Shown piece by piece: positions 22,401 to 28,896 of a stretch of 48,004 bases of DNA. The position numbers and the translations under genes are program-made. Source of the DNA: Deltaproteobacteria bacterium (GTDB lineage: Bacteria; Bdellovibrionota_B; Oligoflexia; Oligoflexales; CAIYRB01); contig VGTI01000033.1 in assembly GCA_016874735.1 (NCBI GenBank), forward strand, positions 1 to 48,004, in the 5' to 3' direction. The notes under the pieces are model-generated. The model searched no databases. It was not told the DNA's origin and worked only from the letters and a program-made list of their open reading frames with translations. The stretch's first letter is position 1. Every line of letters starts with the position of its first letter.

Positions 22401-22871
22401 TCAGTGACTCCCTGGTGTCAGATTTGTTTGAAAGGAGCTAAGAGCCGCTTTTTTAAATTTGTTAAGCTGGCGCTGCGAAAGTGGCGTTTTTACATCGGCA
22501 GCAACTACTTTTCGGCTGGTTTGCACGGATCTAATTTTTGCCCTAAAGGCTGCCGGTCGTGCCCCAATTTGGTCAACAAACCGTTTTGAAAAGTGTGCTT
22601 GATTACTGAACCCGCAAACGGATGCGACGTGACGGAGTTCTAAATCTGGTTTGTGGGTTATGACAGTCTTTGCCAAGTGTACGCGGTAGTTCCAAATCCA
22701 CTGCATGGGAGTCAGACTACAGGTTGATTTGAACAGACGGTTTAAGCTTACTTTTGCCAGCCCTGTGGAGTCAGCCAGTTCCTCCAGCGAAATCGAGCGA
22801 TCGTGATTGCGGATCAGGTATCCGACAGCTCGTTTGAAGTCCCTGGAGTTGAGTTTTACGGGGCGTGGCAT
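22401..22871 (-). CDS. AraC-family transcriptional regulator, DNA-binding domain only
   Basis: I take the start at the ATG at 22871 (MPRPVKLNSRDFKRAVGYLI), 10 bases after GGGAG, giving 156 residues. Two helix-turn-helix units are visible: SISLEELADSTGLAKVSLNR and the more conserved LRHVASVCGFSNQAHFSKRF. There is no sensor domain. The open frame extends to 23081, but that would translate the terminator of the upstream cytochrome operon, so the long form is unlikely. It lies downstream of the cytochrome genes on the same strand and converges with the winged-helix gene. Confidence 0.85.
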   Translation of the reverse strand: MPRPVKLNSRDFKRAVGYLIRNHDRSISLEELADSTGLAKVSLNRLFKSTCSLTPMQWIWNYRVHLAKTVITHKPDLELRHVASVCGFSNQAHFSKRFVDQIGARPAAFRAKIRSVQTSRKVVAADVKTPLSQRQLNKFKKAALSSFQTNLTPGSH

Positions 22872-23037
22872 AAGGAGTGTTCTCCCTCCGCCCAATATCA
22901 CTGCAACGCCTGTGCCGTGCATAAAAATACAGCAATGAAATATTAAATCTAATAGTTTCATTCTGTTGTAGATCGGATCGCGGACGACGAAGGCTGGAAA
23001 TAGGCCACGTGGATAAATTATGGGACGTTTAGTGGTG

Positions 23038-23063
23038 AAAAAAAGGACACCCTGAAGGTGTCC
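23038..23063 (-). terminator. Intrinsic terminator after the cytochrome genes
   Basis: On the minus strand, GGACACC and GGTGTCC form a perfect 7-bp stem with a 5-base loop followed by seven T residues. It sits 28 bases after the stop of the small cytochrome gene. Confidence 0.9.
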
Positions 23064-23090
23064 GTCCGTAAACTCAAACAATTTAGTTTG

Positions 23091-23474
23091 TTAGTGCTTC
23101 GGCGTTTGTCCGCGGACAAATTTGTGGCATTGGACGCATTCGAGAGAGACACGTACGTAACCTACCGTAATTCCCTCGAGATTATGGGCCTTAGCCTGAT
23201 CTTTGACGTATGCCGCTGCAGTTTGAAAACTCTTCGAGTAAAACTGGAAGTCTGGTGAATCGCGTTTACTCCAAGTCGTGGCCTTACTAAGGTCGTGAAG
23301 CATCCCGGCAAAATGCTCAAGCTTGCTGTAGTCTTCGGTGGCAAGTGCATCGAGAAGACCATGAGCGGCGGTGAGCTTGTCCCGCATTAAAACTTTGACG
23401 TTGCTGTCAGCGGCCTGGGCTATTGGGGCCATTGCTGATAGGGCTGTGATGACAATTCCAAATGCAGATTGCAT
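23091..23474 (-). CDS. Periplasmic c-type cytochrome, cytochrome c'/c556-like
   Basis: A 127-residue exported protein. The signal peptide ends near AQAADS (residues 20-24). The rest is helical with a C-terminal haem-binding CVQCH at residues 113-117, the layout of the four-helix cytochrome c'/c556 group, where the axial ligand would be a Met or none. AAAGGAGG precedes the ATG. 12 bases separate it from the larger cytochrome gene upstream, so both are in one operon ended by the terminator at 23038-23063. Electron transfer partner unknown. Confidence 0.87.
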   Translation of the reverse strand: MQSAFGIVITALSAMAPIAQAADSNVKVLMRDKLTAAHGLLDALATEDYSKLEHFAGMLHDLSKATTWSKRDSPDFQFYSKSFQTAAAYVKDQAKAHNLEGITVGYVRVSLECVQCHKFVRGQTPKH

Positions 23475-23486
23475 TTCTGGCCTCCT

Positions 23487-24680
23487 TTAGGTTTTTTGCT
23501 GTGACTTAGCGTTGTCGATTAATTTCCTCAGCTCGGCGAGCAGTGCCTTAACATCAGGCGGGATATGAGTGCCGCTGGAGCCGCTAAACCCAACGGTATA
23601 ACTCTCCTCAAGGAGCGCGTAGGCCTTTTCAGCAAAAGGCGCTGCGGGAGCCATACGGATAGCCGTCTCAAAATCAAACTCCTCCCTGGAGATCCAATAA
23701 GAGTGAGATAGCAGCGATTCCGTGATTCCGAGTAAGTAGTAGGCTTCGGCGACATCGGGCGTTGCCTCTGGGTGATCGTGGACGTAACGATTGAGGATAG
23801 CTGCTGCGGTGATGTAATGAACTGTGCCATTACGGTCGCGCGGAAATTCCATCATTTCCCGGCCTTGAGACAGCACTCTATGAGCGGTTGCTACATCGGT
23901 TTTGGCGAGTGCTTTTTCGTTCTCGAGTTGCTGAATGGCATCAAGCCAATGGCTCATTTGACTTTTGACGTGCCCCGGTAGGTCAGGTCTTGCTAGGATT
24001 TTGTCTATCAGTTTTTTGGGGCGATCGAGGTCGCCTTTGGCATTAGTGGCGATTTTTAGGTAATCGGTAAACGAGCCGAGCAAACCAATGCTATTGAGTG
24101 GCACGTTGCCGCTGGCAAAATAGTCTTCATAGGTCTTCATTGCATCATCGAACTGTCGACTCACTACGTAGAAATGAGCCTTCTCGAGGGGATGCAGGCG
24201 GTCAATTTTAAGTGCGGCGAAGAAACCAGTAGCAGGTGGAACTTTGTGCGTTTCGGGTAGGCTCTCATGACAGGCAATGCAATTTTCAGTCATATTGTGT
24301 ATGGCGAATTTTGCCTCTTCGAAATCGCCACGCTCGAAGCGGCGATATGCATGACGCGCATCGTTACGGAGCGATTTGGCGATGTAGTCAAAGGCCTTAT
24401 CTTTGCGCCGTGCGTGGTCTTCGAGGTGGGTTGCGCTATCCATGAGTTGTTTCAAATCTTTGCTGATCGCAGCTCTGTTTTTTGCCGATTCAAAGCTAGA
24501 ATCATCAAAACTTAGCGGCAAAACACGAGATAAAGGAGCGATAATTTGTTGCATGATGCTCTGTGTCGGTGCGTCCTCTTTCGCCTTGGTGCCTGGAGCT
24601 GCGTAGCTCATTTGCCAAGTAGGCAAAAAACTTAAGGTTAAACCAACGACTCTACATACTTTGCATAGTGAAAAAGCCAT
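23487..24680 (-). CDS. Exported c-type cytochrome with helical repeat tail
   Basis: A 397-residue protein with an N-terminal signal peptide (cleavage near YAAPG, residues 26-30). Residues about 40-140 are a helical cytochrome c'-like domain ending in CIACH at 134-138. The remainder is alpha-helical with a TPR-like pattern (LEKAHFYVVSRQFDDAMKTY, PDVAEAYYLLGITESLL, FAEKAYALLEESY). The combination suggests a haem protein that docks onto partners through its repeats. GGAGGG precedes the ATG. It follows the sigma54 regulator gene by 62 bases on the same strand. Confidence 0.85.
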   Translation of the reverse strand: MAFSLCKVCRVVGLTLSFLPTWQMSYAAPGTKAKEDAPTQSIMQQIIAPLSRVLPLSFDDSSFESAKNRAAISKDLKQLMDSATHLEDHARRKDKAFDYIAKSLRNDARHAYRRFERGDFEEAKFAIHNMTENCIACHESLPETHKVPPATGFFAALKIDRLHPLEKAHFYVVSRQFDDAMKTYEDYFASGNVPLNSIGLLGSFTDYLKIATNAKGDLDRPKKLIDKILARPDLPGHVKSQMSHWLDAIQQLENEKALAKTDVATAHRVLSQGREMMEFPRDRNGTVHYITAAAILNRYVHDHPEATPDVAEAYYLLGITESLLSHSYWISREEFDFETAIRMAPAAPFAEKAYALLEESYTVGFSGSSGTHIPPDVKALLAELRKLIDNAKSQQKT

Positions 24681-24742: not shown

Positions 24743-26365
24743 TCAGGCCAGGGCGCCGTGGTGCGGTGCCAGCAAGCCATGCTTTTCCATTCGGTAGCGC
24801 AAAGTATGACGGGTAATCCCTAACAATTGTGCCGCTCGGGTTTGATTGTGTCTAGCCTGGTCTAAAGCTTGCGTCAAAAGGCTCTTTTCAAGATCATCCA
24901 AATTTACACCCGAGGCTGGTAACCGAAAGTTGCTGGTGACTGGTTCTGGGGCTTGCGTGCTAGGCAATCGATCACAGGTCATGGTTGTTTGGCGATCAGC
25001 GTTCGTCGGGTGTGCCATGGCTCCGGCGCGGATCGGCATAGGTAACTGCCGCTCATTGGTTGGTGCGAGTACCGGACTAGGCATTGGCAATTGCCGCGCT
25101 TGCGGTTCAAGGTCGCTGCTCAGCGGTGGCGCGCTAAGAGACTCGGGTACGGTATCTATGCGTAGATGGCGGGGCTCAAGTAATTGAGGTTCATAAAATA
25201 CCAGCGCGCGTTCGAGCACATTCTTCAATTCACGCACATTGCCCGGCCAATCGTGTTGCATTAGCACAGCTAAAGCCTCCCGACTCACGTCAGGCCTATG
25301 AAGTTCCAGGTCCGAACTTAGTTTTGTCAGAAAGAAGGCGACTAAGTGAGGGAGGTCGTCGATACGTTCTCGCAGTGCCGGTACGTAAACTGGCAAAGCG
25401 CTGAGGCGGTAATAGAGGTCGGCTCTAAAGCGCTTTTCGGCCACCTCCTCAAGTAGATTGCGGTGGGTTGCAGCGATAATACGTCCGGTAAATTCAATAT
25501 CTTTAATACTACCGAGGCGTTTAAACCGTCGATATTCGATCGCCCGGAGTAGCTTGGCTTGGAGTTTCAACGGCATATCGCCAATCTCGTCAAGAAAAAT
25601 GCTGCCGTTTCGGGCTATCTCAAAAAGTCCTAGCTTGCGTTCTCGGGCATCGGTAAAGGCGCCTTTTTCGTAACCGAATAGCTCGCTTTCGAGAAGCGTT
25701 TCAGGTATCGATGCGCAGTTGATCTCGACAAAGGGGTGGCCTGCCCGATCACCCCACTCGTGGATGGCCCGTGCGGCTAGCTCCTTGCCGCTGCCGCTTT
25801 CGCCGAGAATAAGTGCAGTCTGAGCTTTGCTTTTGGCGATTCTAGCGAGCTCGCTATGGAGTTGCCGCATGGCGACGGTGTCGCCGATGATTTTAACTTC
25901 ACTGCAGCCGGCTTCGCGGCCTTGCAGACGGCTGACTTTTTGGCGCAATTTAGCAATTTCGGTGGCGCGGCCGACGGCAGCTAGAAGATCTTTCATATCG
26001 AACGGTTTTTGCAAATAGTCACAGGCGCCAAGGCGTAGCGCCGTGATGGCCGAATCGATGGCGCCGTGGGCGGTAATTAAGATTACCGGCATGTCGGGGT
26101 GTTCTATTCTCCATTTCTTCAACAATTCTAATCCATTACCATCTGGCAGGCGTAGGTCGGTGACAGCTACGTCCGGGGTGAATTGGTGGAAACGCTCAAT
26201 GGCCTCCCGGACGCTACCGGCTCGCATGGTTTCGGCGCCAAGTCCGCGAAGCTCGGTGTCTATGCTCCACGCGAGAATGTCTTCATCATCGACGATAAGT
26301 ATTTTGGTATCTTTGAGGTTGATGGTGTGGCCGGGATTTTTGGTAGATGCGGTTTGGATAGTCAT
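24743..26365 (-). CDS. Sigma54-dependent response regulator, NtrC family
   Basis: A 540-residue activator. The receiver domain (about 20-135) has the acidic pair at 26-27, phospho-acceptor Asp70 and Lys120. The AAA+ domain has Walker A GESGSGKE (188-195), Walker B SIFLDE (255-260) and the sigma54 loop as GAFTDA (235-240) in place of GAFTGA. A Pro/Gln-rich linker with repeated RQLPMP leads to a Fis-type helix-turn-helix (NQTRAAQLLGITRHTLRYRM). It follows the kinase-like gene by 9 bases and precedes the cytochrome genes, which it may activate; no -24/-12 promoter was found before them. Confidence 0.95.
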   Translation of the reverse strand: MTIQTASTKNPGHTINLKDTKILIVDDEDILAWSIDTELRGLGAETMRAGSVREAIERFHQFTPDVAVTDLRLPDGNGLELLKKWRIEHPDMPVILITAHGAIDSAITALRLGACDYLQKPFDMKDLLAAVGRATEIAKLRQKVSRLQGREAGCSEVKIIGDTVAMRQLHSELARIAKSKAQTALILGESGSGKELAARAIHEWGDRAGHPFVEINCASIPETLLESELFGYEKGAFTDARERKLGLFEIARNGSIFLDEIGDMPLKLQAKLLRAIEYRRFKRLGSIKDIEFTGRIIAATHRNLLEEVAEKRFRADLYYRLSALPVYVPALRERIDDLPHLVAFFLTKLSSDLELHRPDVSREALAVLMQHDWPGNVRELKNVLERALVFYEPQLLEPRHLRIDTVPESLSAPPLSSDLEPQARQLPMPSPVLAPTNERQLPMPIRAGAMAHPTNADRQTTMTCDRLPSTQAPEPVTSNFRLPASGVNLDDLEKSLLTQALDQARHNQTRAAQLLGITRHTLRYRMEKHGLLAPHHGALA

Positions 26366-26374
26366 AACGGATCC

Positions 26375-27130
26375 TCAAGATTCGGTTGAAGGCATAAGGT
26401 CGCTGCTATCGTGTTTTGTGTCGGGCAGATGCATGGATACCTTAGCGCCGCCGAGGGCGCTCCTTTCAATGGTGATTTGACCTCCGTGCGCTCGCGCGAC
26501 TTTTGCTGCTAGGGCGAGGCCGAGTCCGGTGCCCGCCTCTTTGGTAGAGAAGAATGGTTCACAAGCGTGTTTCATCGCTAGTTCCGTGAACCCGGGGCCG
26601 TTGTCCGAGACCTCGATCGTCACCTTTTGCGGCGTTCGGTGGATGGCTACCTTTACCCTGGGGTGGTCGGCTCCGGGATTGCCCATGGCTGCTTCGGCGG
26701 CATTGCGGAGGATGCCAGCTAAGACTATGCGGAGGCGTTCATGATCGACCTCTAGCAACACCGCGTTGGCTGGTGCCACGGTATGTGTCTCAATCCCTGG
26801 TAATCCCGCTGTCATATCCCGCATCGCCGCGCTGAGAACTGCCAACAGATCTGTGGGTTGGAGGTCAATAACGGCTGGCTTGGCAAAATCAATAAGTTCC
26901 GATACGTATGCGCTGAGGCTAGTGAGGCGCCCCCGGATGCGGATTAAAGCGTCGTCGACCAGGGGTTGATTTCGCGCGGCGTGAGATTGAGCGGTTTGGA
27001 GCTGAGTCTCGAGGATGCTGAGCGCGGCGCTGATGCCGCTTATGGGGTTTCTGATGTTGTCAGCAATCGTTGAAACCCACCGGGCCATGGTGATGAGGGC
27101 GGCATTTTGTGTGGGAGTTGGTTGCGTCAT
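26375..27130 (-). CDS. Histidine-kinase-like protein with Asp in place of the phosphoacceptor His
   Basis: A soluble 251-residue protein from the ATG at 27130 (AAGGA 10 bases upstream). The dimerisation helix reads STIADNIRNPISGIS where NtrB-type kinases have IAHEIRNPL, so the phosphorylated His is Asp24 and the next Glu is Asn25. The ATPase domain is complete: ILRNAAEA N box, VSDNGPGF G1 box, EPFFSTKEAGTGLGLALA F and G2 boxes. No sensor or membrane segment. It probably binds ATP but cannot autophosphorylate in the normal way. It is in an operon with the sigma54 regulator. Confidence 0.9.
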   Translation of the reverse strand: MTQPTPTQNAALITMARWVSTIADNIRNPISGISAALSILETQLQTAQSHAARNQPLVDDALIRIRGRLTSLSAYVSELIDFAKPAVIDLQPTDLLAVLSAAMRDMTAGLPGIETHTVAPANAVLLEVDHERLRIVLAGILRNAAEAAMGNPGADHPRVKVAIHRTPQKVTIEVSDNGPGFTELAMKHACEPFFSTKEAGTGLGLALAAKVARAHGGQITIERSALGGAKVSMHLPDTKHDSSDLMPSTES

Positions 27131-27271
27131 CTGCCTCAGATCCTTACCGTTAAACGCGGCACTTCCTACTAAGCAACTTTGGTGCCATATTTTTATTTTC
27201 CGCAATATCCGGCGATCGTATGCTTTTATGGCTATCCTGGCGTACAGTGTGACACCACACAGGTGTGTTAT

Positions 27272-27290
27272 ATCCCGCAGAGAGCGGGAT
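27272..27290. promoter_or_regulatory. Inverted repeat between two signalling operons
   Basis: ATCCCGC-AGAGA-GCGGGAT is a perfect 7-bp dyad in the 207-base region between the divergent kinase genes, 47 bases before the ATG at 27338. A smaller dyad ACACC-ACACA-GGTGT precedes it. Could be an operator or a 5' UTR hairpin. Confidence 0.35.
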
Positions 27291-27337
27291 TCAAATCTAA
27301 AAACTGTTGGCCCTGTTTTTGCTACAGTGGGTGACCT

Positions 27338-28453
27338 ATGAGACAAAATGATTCTTATTCCGCGTCGATTTTCAATAGTTTGATGGAATCAGCACCAGAC
27401 GGCATTTTGGTGTGCGATGCCGATGGTAGGATCATGTTGGCCAGTAAGCAATGCACCGACCTTTTGGGCTACGAGGTCAGCGAACTTGTGGGCGCATCGA
27501 TTGACATGTTGGTTCCCGAGTCTGGGCGCCCTAAGCATGCAGAGCTGCGGTCGTCTTACATGAAGTTGCCGCGTCCTAGGCCTATGGGAGCTGGGCTTAA
27601 TTTGTCCGCACGACGTAAAAACGGCAGCTCCGTTCCCGTGGAAATAAGCTTGAGTGGTACCGAAGTCGATGGCAGCAAGTGTGTCATCGCCATCATTCGG
27701 GACGTGAGTGATCGGCGGCGCCTAGAGATTGATCTGCAGCGTCTTGTTGCGGAGCTCAAAAGGTCAAATGAGGAACTGGAGCAATTTGCTTACATTGCCA
27801 GTCACGACTTGCAGGAGCCGTTGCGCGTGGTGAGCGGGTACACGCAACTCTTGAAAAGGCGCTATGCTGGGCAACTCGACGACGAGGCGCAGGAGTATAT
27901 CGATTTTAGCGTCGAGGGTGTCAAACGCATGCAGGCCCTGATAAATGACTTGCTTGCTTATGCGCGTCTATCGACGAGAGGACGTGAATTTAAACCTACG
28001 GACTTGGGCCAACTTGCTAAGCAGACTATTTTGTACCTCTCGCCTGTGATTGAGGAAGCAAAGGCGCACATCGAGTTGGACGCCTTACCGATTGTCATGG
28101 GTGATCAGTCGCAGCTTTCTCAAGTACTGCAAAATCTTCTGAGCAACGCGCTGAAGTTTCGTTCCCCAGAGCGGCCAATTGTCATTAAGATTAGCGCCGC
28201 GCGTCGCGGCGATGAATGGGTGATTCAAGTTGCTGATAATGGTATCGGCATTGCCCCCGAATACCGGGAACGGATTTTTGTCGCTTTTCAGCGACTTCAT
28301 ACGCGCGATCTTTATCCCGGCAATGGCATCGGACTGGCTATCTGTAAAAAAGTTATCGAGCGTCACCACGGGCGCATTTGGGTTGAGCCGGTATCGACTC
28401 AAGGTACCGTGTTTTGTTTCACACTTCCTGTGGCTGGGAGCCAAGATTCTTGA
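27338..28453 (+). CDS. PAS-domain sensor histidine kinase
   Basis: A soluble 371-residue kinase. A PAS domain spans about residues 8-125 (MESAPDGILVCDADGRIMLA, later IIRDVSDRRRLE). A short coiled coil leads to the phosphoacceptor His156 in SHDLQEPLR. The ATPase domain has QNLLSNALKF, VADNGIGI and GNGIGLAICKK. The SHDLQEPLR box and the Rcp1-type partner are typical of the phytochrome-like kinase subgroup. The PAS ligand is unknown. Stop and start of the next gene overlap (TTGA), so the pair is co-translated. Confidence 0.95.
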   Translation: MRQNDSYSASIFNSLMESAPDGILVCDADGRIMLASKQCTDLLGYEVSELVGASIDMLVPESGRPKHAELRSSYMKLPRPRPMGAGLNLSARRKNGSSVPVEISLSGTEVDGSKCVIAIIRDVSDRRRLEIDLQRLVAELKRSNEELEQFAYIASHDLQEPLRVVSGYTQLLKRRYAGQLDDEAQEYIDFSVEGVKRMQALINDLLAYARLSTRGREFKPTDLGQLAKQTILYLSPVIEEAKAHIELDALPIVMGDQSQLSQVLQNLLSNALKFRSPERPIVIKISAARRGDEWVIQVADNGIGIAPEYRERIFVAFQRLHTRDLYPGNGIGLAICKKVIERHHGRIWVEPVSTQGTVFCFTLPVAGSQDS

Positions 28454-28896
28454 GTCCCTATCATTTAAGACGACCTATTGAGATCCTCTTGGTGGAGGAC
28501 AATCCTGCTGACGTGCGGCTCACTATCGAGGCCTTCAAAGAGGGTAAGGTGCGCCATAATTTGACGGTAGCCAGAGATGGAATTGAAGCAATCGCCATGC
28601 TGTACGCGTATGGAAATTATGCTGCAGTGCAAAGGCCCGATCTTGTGCTTTTAGACCTCAACTTGCCGCGCAAGGACGGTAGAGAGGTCTTAGCTACCGT
28701 GAAGGCCGACCCGAGTTTACGCAGCATTCCCGTGATCGTTTTGACCACATCATCAGCCGAAGAAGACATCCACCAGTGCTATGAACTCCATGCCAACTCG
28801 TATGTAACGAAGCCAGTTGATATGGATCAATTTATTGCTCTGGTCAGGACTATTGATCTTTTCTGGTTTCAGGTTGCGCAGTTACCGCTACTTTAG
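28450..28896 (+). CDS. Rcp1-type single-domain response regulator
   Basis: A receiver-only protein of 148 residues with IEILLVEDNPADVRLT, phospho-acceptor Asp69 (LVLLDLNLPRKDG), LTTS and the conserved Lys in YVTKPVD. I choose the TTG at 28450, which overlaps the kinase stop as TTGA and has GGGAG 9 bases upstream; the frame is open to a TTG at 28414, which has no such site. It is the cognate regulator of the PAS kinase and has no output domain, so signalling must go through protein contact or phosphorelay. Confidence 0.92.
   Translation: MSPYHLRRPIEILLVEDNPADVRLTIEAFKEGKVRHNLTVARDGIEAIAMLYAYGNYAAVQRPDLVLLDLNLPRKDGREVLATVKADPSLRSIPVIVLTTSSAEEDIHQCYELHANSYVTKPVDMDQFIALVRTIDLFWFQVAQLPLL

Follow-up and report, generated by a model that had tools for sequence, protein, structure and literature searches.

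A pseudo-histidine kinase with a fixed non-histidine acceptor position, encoded beside an intact NtrC-type response regulator

The 48,004-nt stretch of contig VGTI01000033.1 that we analysed (the window) encodes a protein, here called DHK, in which an aspartate (Asp24) stands where histidine kinases have their phospho-acceptor histidine. This non-histidine acceptor is real, fixed and selected, and DHK is encoded together with RR54, an NtrC-type response regulator (Table 1). The reading we favour, at a probability of roughly 0.5, is that DHK is a pseudokinase that replaced a kinase and acts as a phosphatase or brake on phosphorylated RR54 (RR54~P). DHK is a variation on the pseudo-histidine kinase theme that is restricted to its lineage, not a new kind of system.

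Pfam places a HisKA domain at residues 16-84 of DHK (27.4 bits against a cut-off of 26.9) and a HATPase_c domain at residues 129-238 (73.6 bits). The X-box reads IADNIRNPISG; as originally predicted, Asp24 occupies the phospho-acceptor His slot, and Asn25 occupies that of the Glu. The original description did not mention the loss of this Glu, the exact sigma-54 promoter at 27172-27187 or the GAFTDA loop of RR54. The nucleotide-binding boxes, also predicted to be intact, are all there (N143, DNGPGF, PFFSTKEAGTGLGL), and the N, G1, F and G2 boxes (N143, D176-G180, P192-F193, G202-L205) are invariant in 8/8 members of the DHK family. Since just 15 or so residues precede HisKA, the protein does indeed have no sensor domain, and Pfam gave no PAS match in DHK. 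We take the ATG listed in Table 1 as the start because a sigma-54 promoter lies just upstream of it. An AlphaFold model built from alignment A4 has a mean pLDDT of 87, with a continuous helix (residues 6-47) that bears both D24 and N28, and its fold matches those of ZraS (TM 0.73), CpxA, HK853 and DivL.

Table 1. Features of the DHK-RR54 locus and its surroundings, in window positions.
Feature	Position	Strand	Basis or remark
127-aa CxxCH protein, probably in the operon; weak match to cytochrome c'	23091..23474	-	Pfam, conserved order
Exported CxxCH protein of 397 aa, probably in the operon	23487..24680	-	62 nt after RR54; order kept in G004, G002 and G005
RR54, NtrC-type response regulator (receiver, sigma-54 AAA+, HTH_8)	24743..26365	-	Pfam and alignment
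RR54 GAFTDA loop	25646..25663	-	Alignment
Asp70 codon, RR54 phospho-acceptor, invariant	26156..26158	-	Alignment
DHK, 251-aa pseudo-histidine kinase (HisKA + HATPase_c)	26375..27130	-	Pfam; ATG at 27130
Asn28 codon, H+4, phosphatase-specific residue, invariant	27047..27049	-	Alignment; role per PMC3510030
Asn25 codon, H+1 (Glu in kinases)	27056..27058	-	Alignment
Asp24 codon, phospho-acceptor His position	27059..27061	-	Alignments A1 and A4
Sigma-54 promoter TGGCACCAAAGTTGCT of the DHK-RR54 operon	27172..27187	-	8/8 orthologous loci
Candidate enhancer half-palindrome GTGTTATATCCC (tentative)	27265..27276		2 mismatches to GTGTTATAACAC
Sigma-54-like site upstream of the PAS kinase, divergent, with 1 mismatch	27308..27323	+	Similar sites in G004, G002 and G005
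Divergent PAS histidine kinase, normal His	27338..28453	+	Considered as DHK partner
Single-domain response regulator that pairs with the PAS kinase; probably starts further downstream	28414..28896	+	Pfam

Homologue searches covered 43 genomes of the window's order and 58 of its phylum. DHK was found in eight genomes, comprising 7/7 of the window's taxonomic family and one (G038) from another family of the order; no relatives were found among viral contigs. Against a family profile the eight members score 328-400 bits, and the next best hit (G010) about 127. Position 24 is Asp in seven members and Asn in the eighth (G006); the other HisKA hits having a residue aligned at the acceptor position carry His there in 110/110 cases. 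Among the non-DHK kinases of alignment A4, the acceptor His is present in 34/34, a Glu at the next position (H+1) in 33/34 and an Asn at H+4 in 33/34. In the DHK family the kinase-specific Glu is gone from all eight proteins, with Asn in five, His in two (G001 and G003) and Gln in one, while the H+4 Asn (N28) is kept in 8/8.

With eight separate genomes in agreement, a sequencing error or a private mutation at Asp24 is ruled out. None of the orthologues has His at this position, and the substitution is fixed along with the operon, as RR54 adjoins DHK in every case. Asp24 might itself be phosphorylated by the CA domain and hand its acyl phosphate to Asp70 of RR54. Acyl phosphates can phosphorylate receivers, and an Asp is available in seven of the eight proteins. 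However, the Asn of G006 cannot serve, the Glu needed for autophosphorylation is missing from H+1 throughout, and a precedent was not found; we consider this route extremely unlikely.

The original prediction would also have fallen had another His nearby been phosphorylated. On the sequence side this is ruled out: no His of the DHp domain is conserved (the H+1 His of G001 and G003 is absent from the other six), and because H215, in the CA domain, is the sole His invariant across the family, no substitute phospho-acceptor is conserved. In a quick tree the eight DHKs form one fully supported group. Descent of DHK by degeneration from the PAS histidine kinase is unsupported, as a quick tree, weakly supported at depth, places that kinase elsewhere. 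We calculated dN/dS in the two close pairs where it was usable, dS being saturated or near-saturated in more distant pairs, and obtained 0.06 and 0.11 for DHK and 0.11 and 0.06 for RR54. These RR54-like values show that DHK is under purifying selection and rule out a decaying pseudogene.

The partner regulator is equally well preserved in its receiver, where the predicted normal phospho-acceptor (Asp70) is accompanied by D26, D27, T98 and K120. The receiver is intact in 8/8 DHK genomes, indicating that phosphorylation still matters, and the seven other DHK-linked RR54s share 62-83% identity with that of the window. RR54 belongs to the NtrC family by its receiver (acidic pair, Asp, Thr and Lys), sigma-54 AAA+ domain and Fis-type HTH. 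Its sigma-54 contact loop reads GAFTDA rather than the canonical GAFTGA, as it does in 14/14 RR54 orthologues and a paralogue in G006; this is a known natural variant (PMC4641369), which does not disqualify RR54 from the family. The same change in NorR (G266D) escapes internal repression and gives signal-independent activity (PMC2941729), and hence an external brake or block on RR54 would be useful. The G006 paralogue (L163 1823-6027, G006:C59) shares what looks like one operon with three other genes, for a REC-HisKA protein, a PAS kinase and a single-domain regulator, so that the grouping found in the window recurs there.

Such a block could also work with no phosphate chemistry at all. In this main rival to a phosphatase, DHK would bind RR54 stoichiometrically and block it under the control of ATP or ADP, as NifL does NifA. 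There too an HK-like protein is encoded with a sigma-54 activator, and ADP stabilises the inhibitory complex (PMC9866876); the invariant nucleotide boxes of DHK fit this arrangement, as does the RR54 loop that equals NorR G266D (PMC2941729). Yet every receiver residue of RR54 is kept in 8/8 genomes, unlike in NifA, DHK lacks a PAS or other sensor, and the invariant N28 goes unexplained. RR54s with no link to DHK, moreover, also have the GAFTDA loop. On balance, we consider a block of this kind unlikely.

DHK was originally described as "fused in operon" to RR54. The operon part holds, with DHK directly upstream of RR54 in 8/8 genomes and only 9 nt between them in the window, but the two are not fused. 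A sigma-54 promoter (TGGCACC-N4-TTGC) precedes DHK at all eight loci, exact in seven and with one mismatch in G038, where it falls at the mechanical ORF start; this speaks for a downstream Met as the actual start of the G038 protein. The window holds a single exact match to the promoter, against 0.06 expected; scans for sigma-70 promoters and terminators stayed at chance level. RpoN is present, and several genomes have a partly palindromic GTGTTATAACAC-like element further upstream, although significance was not reached in all. The conserved promoter, RpoN and upstream sites suggest that RR54 activates its own operon, and the DHK-RR54 operon is thus probably self-activated.

In four genomes, genes for two CxxCH proteins follow RR54 in the operon, and homologues of the 397-aa protein also lie near RR54 in G038, G007 and G036, so the output may concern c-type cytochromes. 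Both CxxCH proteins (window 23091-24680) are exported, and the longer one has no Pfam match yet recurs near RR54 in other families of the order. Next to them, an AraC-type regulator frame (22401-23081) contains a strong stem-loop and T-run (23063-23045) within its 5' part, indicating that the gene probably begins further downstream.

On the other side of DHK, the 207-bp intergenic region (27131-27337) contains two divergent sigma-54-like sites, and DHK and RR54 may therefore share their regulation with the PAS kinase and its single-domain regulator. This PAS kinase had been suggested as a partner for DHK. It lies beside DHK in 5/8 genomes, but is absent from that place in G006 and G038 (the contig ends there in G003) and has its own single-domain regulator immediately downstream, which weakens the suggestion. 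It bears on the possibility of mixed dimers, in which the CA domain of DHK would phosphorylate the His of another kinase, or DHK would tune that kinase, much as ChrS_CA-fs does. Pseudo-HK heterodimers have precedent (PMC9491836), and a CA domain fully conserved despite loss of the acceptor is what they would need. However, a conserved partner is also needed, none is linked to DHK in all eight genomes, and the universal link between DHK and RR54 would be left unexplained; we find mixed dimers quite improbable.

The single-domain regulator next to DHK in the window could instead be something that DHK reads. Here the DHp domain of DHK would sense the phosphorylation of this regulator, or of RR54, and relay it to another protein. 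DivL, which is among the structural matches of DHK, has a conserved non-His acceptor and intact boxes and binds DivK~P (PMC4211667). DHK has none of the PAS domains through which DivL is thought to bind in a phospho-specific way, though, and the single-domain regulator is not beside it in G006 or G038. Such a reader is very unlikely in our view.

Relatives without DHK indicate what it may have replaced. RR54 orthologues, recognised by DDE[DE]xLAWS and GAFTDA, occur without DHK in six genomes (G022, G030, G007, G014, G036 and G011). Near RR54 in five of these six, and on another contig in G030, is a PAS-HisKA kinase that retains the normal His (GIAHExGNP). Seven genomes contain this kinase at 659 bits or more; it was not found in any of the eight DHK genomes, where the best hits reach at most 276 bits. 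DHK and the GIAHExGNP kinase are thus mutually exclusive (8/0 vs 0/6, p = 0.0003, a value that overstates the exclusivity because it ignores the relatedness of the genomes). The RR54 tree is compatible with the DHK link having arisen either once or twice.

We infer from these residues and neighbours that DHK now probably serves solely to restrain or switch off RR54. Of the three roles originally suggested (phosphatase, allosteric partner or dimer-forming pseudokinase), the phosphatase is best supported by sequence comparison: the kinase-only residues are lost, the phosphatase-only Asn is invariant, and the pattern matches that of K-P+ mutants of the NtrB-like kinase CrdS. In CrdS, changing the H+1 Glu to Ala, Gln, Asp or Gly abolishes kinase activity and keeps phosphatase activity (K-P+), whereas the H+4 Asn is required for the phosphatase only (PMC3510030). 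CrdS H371A, which lacks the His itself, still dephosphorylates CrdA~P (half-life 2.6 min, vs 53.5 min alone; PMC3510030). Given this resemblance, dephosphorylation of RR54~P is the most likely mechanism, and the retained fold, nucleotide site and dephosphorylation Asn point the same way. However, the H+4 Asn is near-universal in this class of kinases (33/34 of the others), and its retention in DHK may just reflect ancestry or fold. DivL, although its HK motifs are retained, shows neither kinase nor phosphatase activity (PMC4211667). PleC H610A, as cited in PMC3510030, lost its phosphatase activity, and the acidic side chain of Asp24 could repel RR54~P, which would also count against a phosphatase.

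Having lost both the acceptor His and the autophosphorylation Glu, DHK cannot supply phosphate to RR54. If it is a phosphatase, it would bind RR54~P and promote loss of the phosphate, gated by ATP/ADP or a ligand. RR54 would receive its phosphate from another kinase or a small-molecule donor, and RR54~P would switch on the sigma-54 promoter of its own operon in a positive feedback, on which DHK from the same mRNA would act as the brake. Candidate kinases in the genome, from searches and sequence stretches, are one of HEINNP type (L199), beside which no response regulator was found, and two large ones (L194 and L196). The genome also has another HK-like fragment, cut by a contig end and directly upstream of a sigma-54 regulator (L206 2-2261, G000:C141). 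Perhaps, though we offer this only tentatively, the kinase was displaced by a dedicated HK-derived phosphatase, so that a self-activating RR54 with a permissive GAFTDA loop is run mainly by phosphate removal and has no cognate kinase of its own.

Pseudo-histidine kinases are already known, DivL being one. Plant ethylene receptors lacking the His may be another example. Few pseudo-histidine kinases have been characterised, and the output of DivL and NifL is not a retained phosphatase; our searches of the open-access literature turned up no HisKA protein in which the acceptor position holds a conserved Asp. DivL of Caulobacter resembles DHK in that its non-His acceptor is conserved across orthologues and its other HK boxes are intact (PMC4211667). 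It differs in having Tyr (Ala in one species) rather than Asp or Asn, in its PAS domains, and in acting on DivK and CckA instead of an operon-encoded sigma-54 regulator. NifL-NifA likewise pairs an HK-like nucleotide-binding protein with a sigma-54 activator, but NifL carries PAS domains as well as an H domain with a conserved His (PMC9866876), and NifA has a GAF domain where RR54 has a receiver. ChrS_CA-fs of C. glutamicum is also a kinase-dead HK that alters the output of its cognate response regulator (PMC9491836), although it arose by a CA-domain frameshift in laboratory evolution, whereas DHK lost its acceptor in nature and kept its CA domain intact.

The NtrB/CrdS-type kinases (NtrB, Myxococcus CrdS and E. 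coli ZraS) share with DHK the HisKA and HATPase_c domains, the HEIRNP-type X-box and an NtrC-type sigma-54 partner, and ZraS is both the best PDB sequence match and a top fold match (9jfj). Against these, every DHK member lacks the acceptor His and the adjacent Glu, and there is no sensor domain. The K-P+ protein obtained by engineering in CrdS appears here to have arisen in nature and become fixed beside an intact NtrC-type regulator. Relatives still pair the same RR54 with a normal kinase and so provide a clean comparison for asking whether dephosphorylation alone can run a response regulator.
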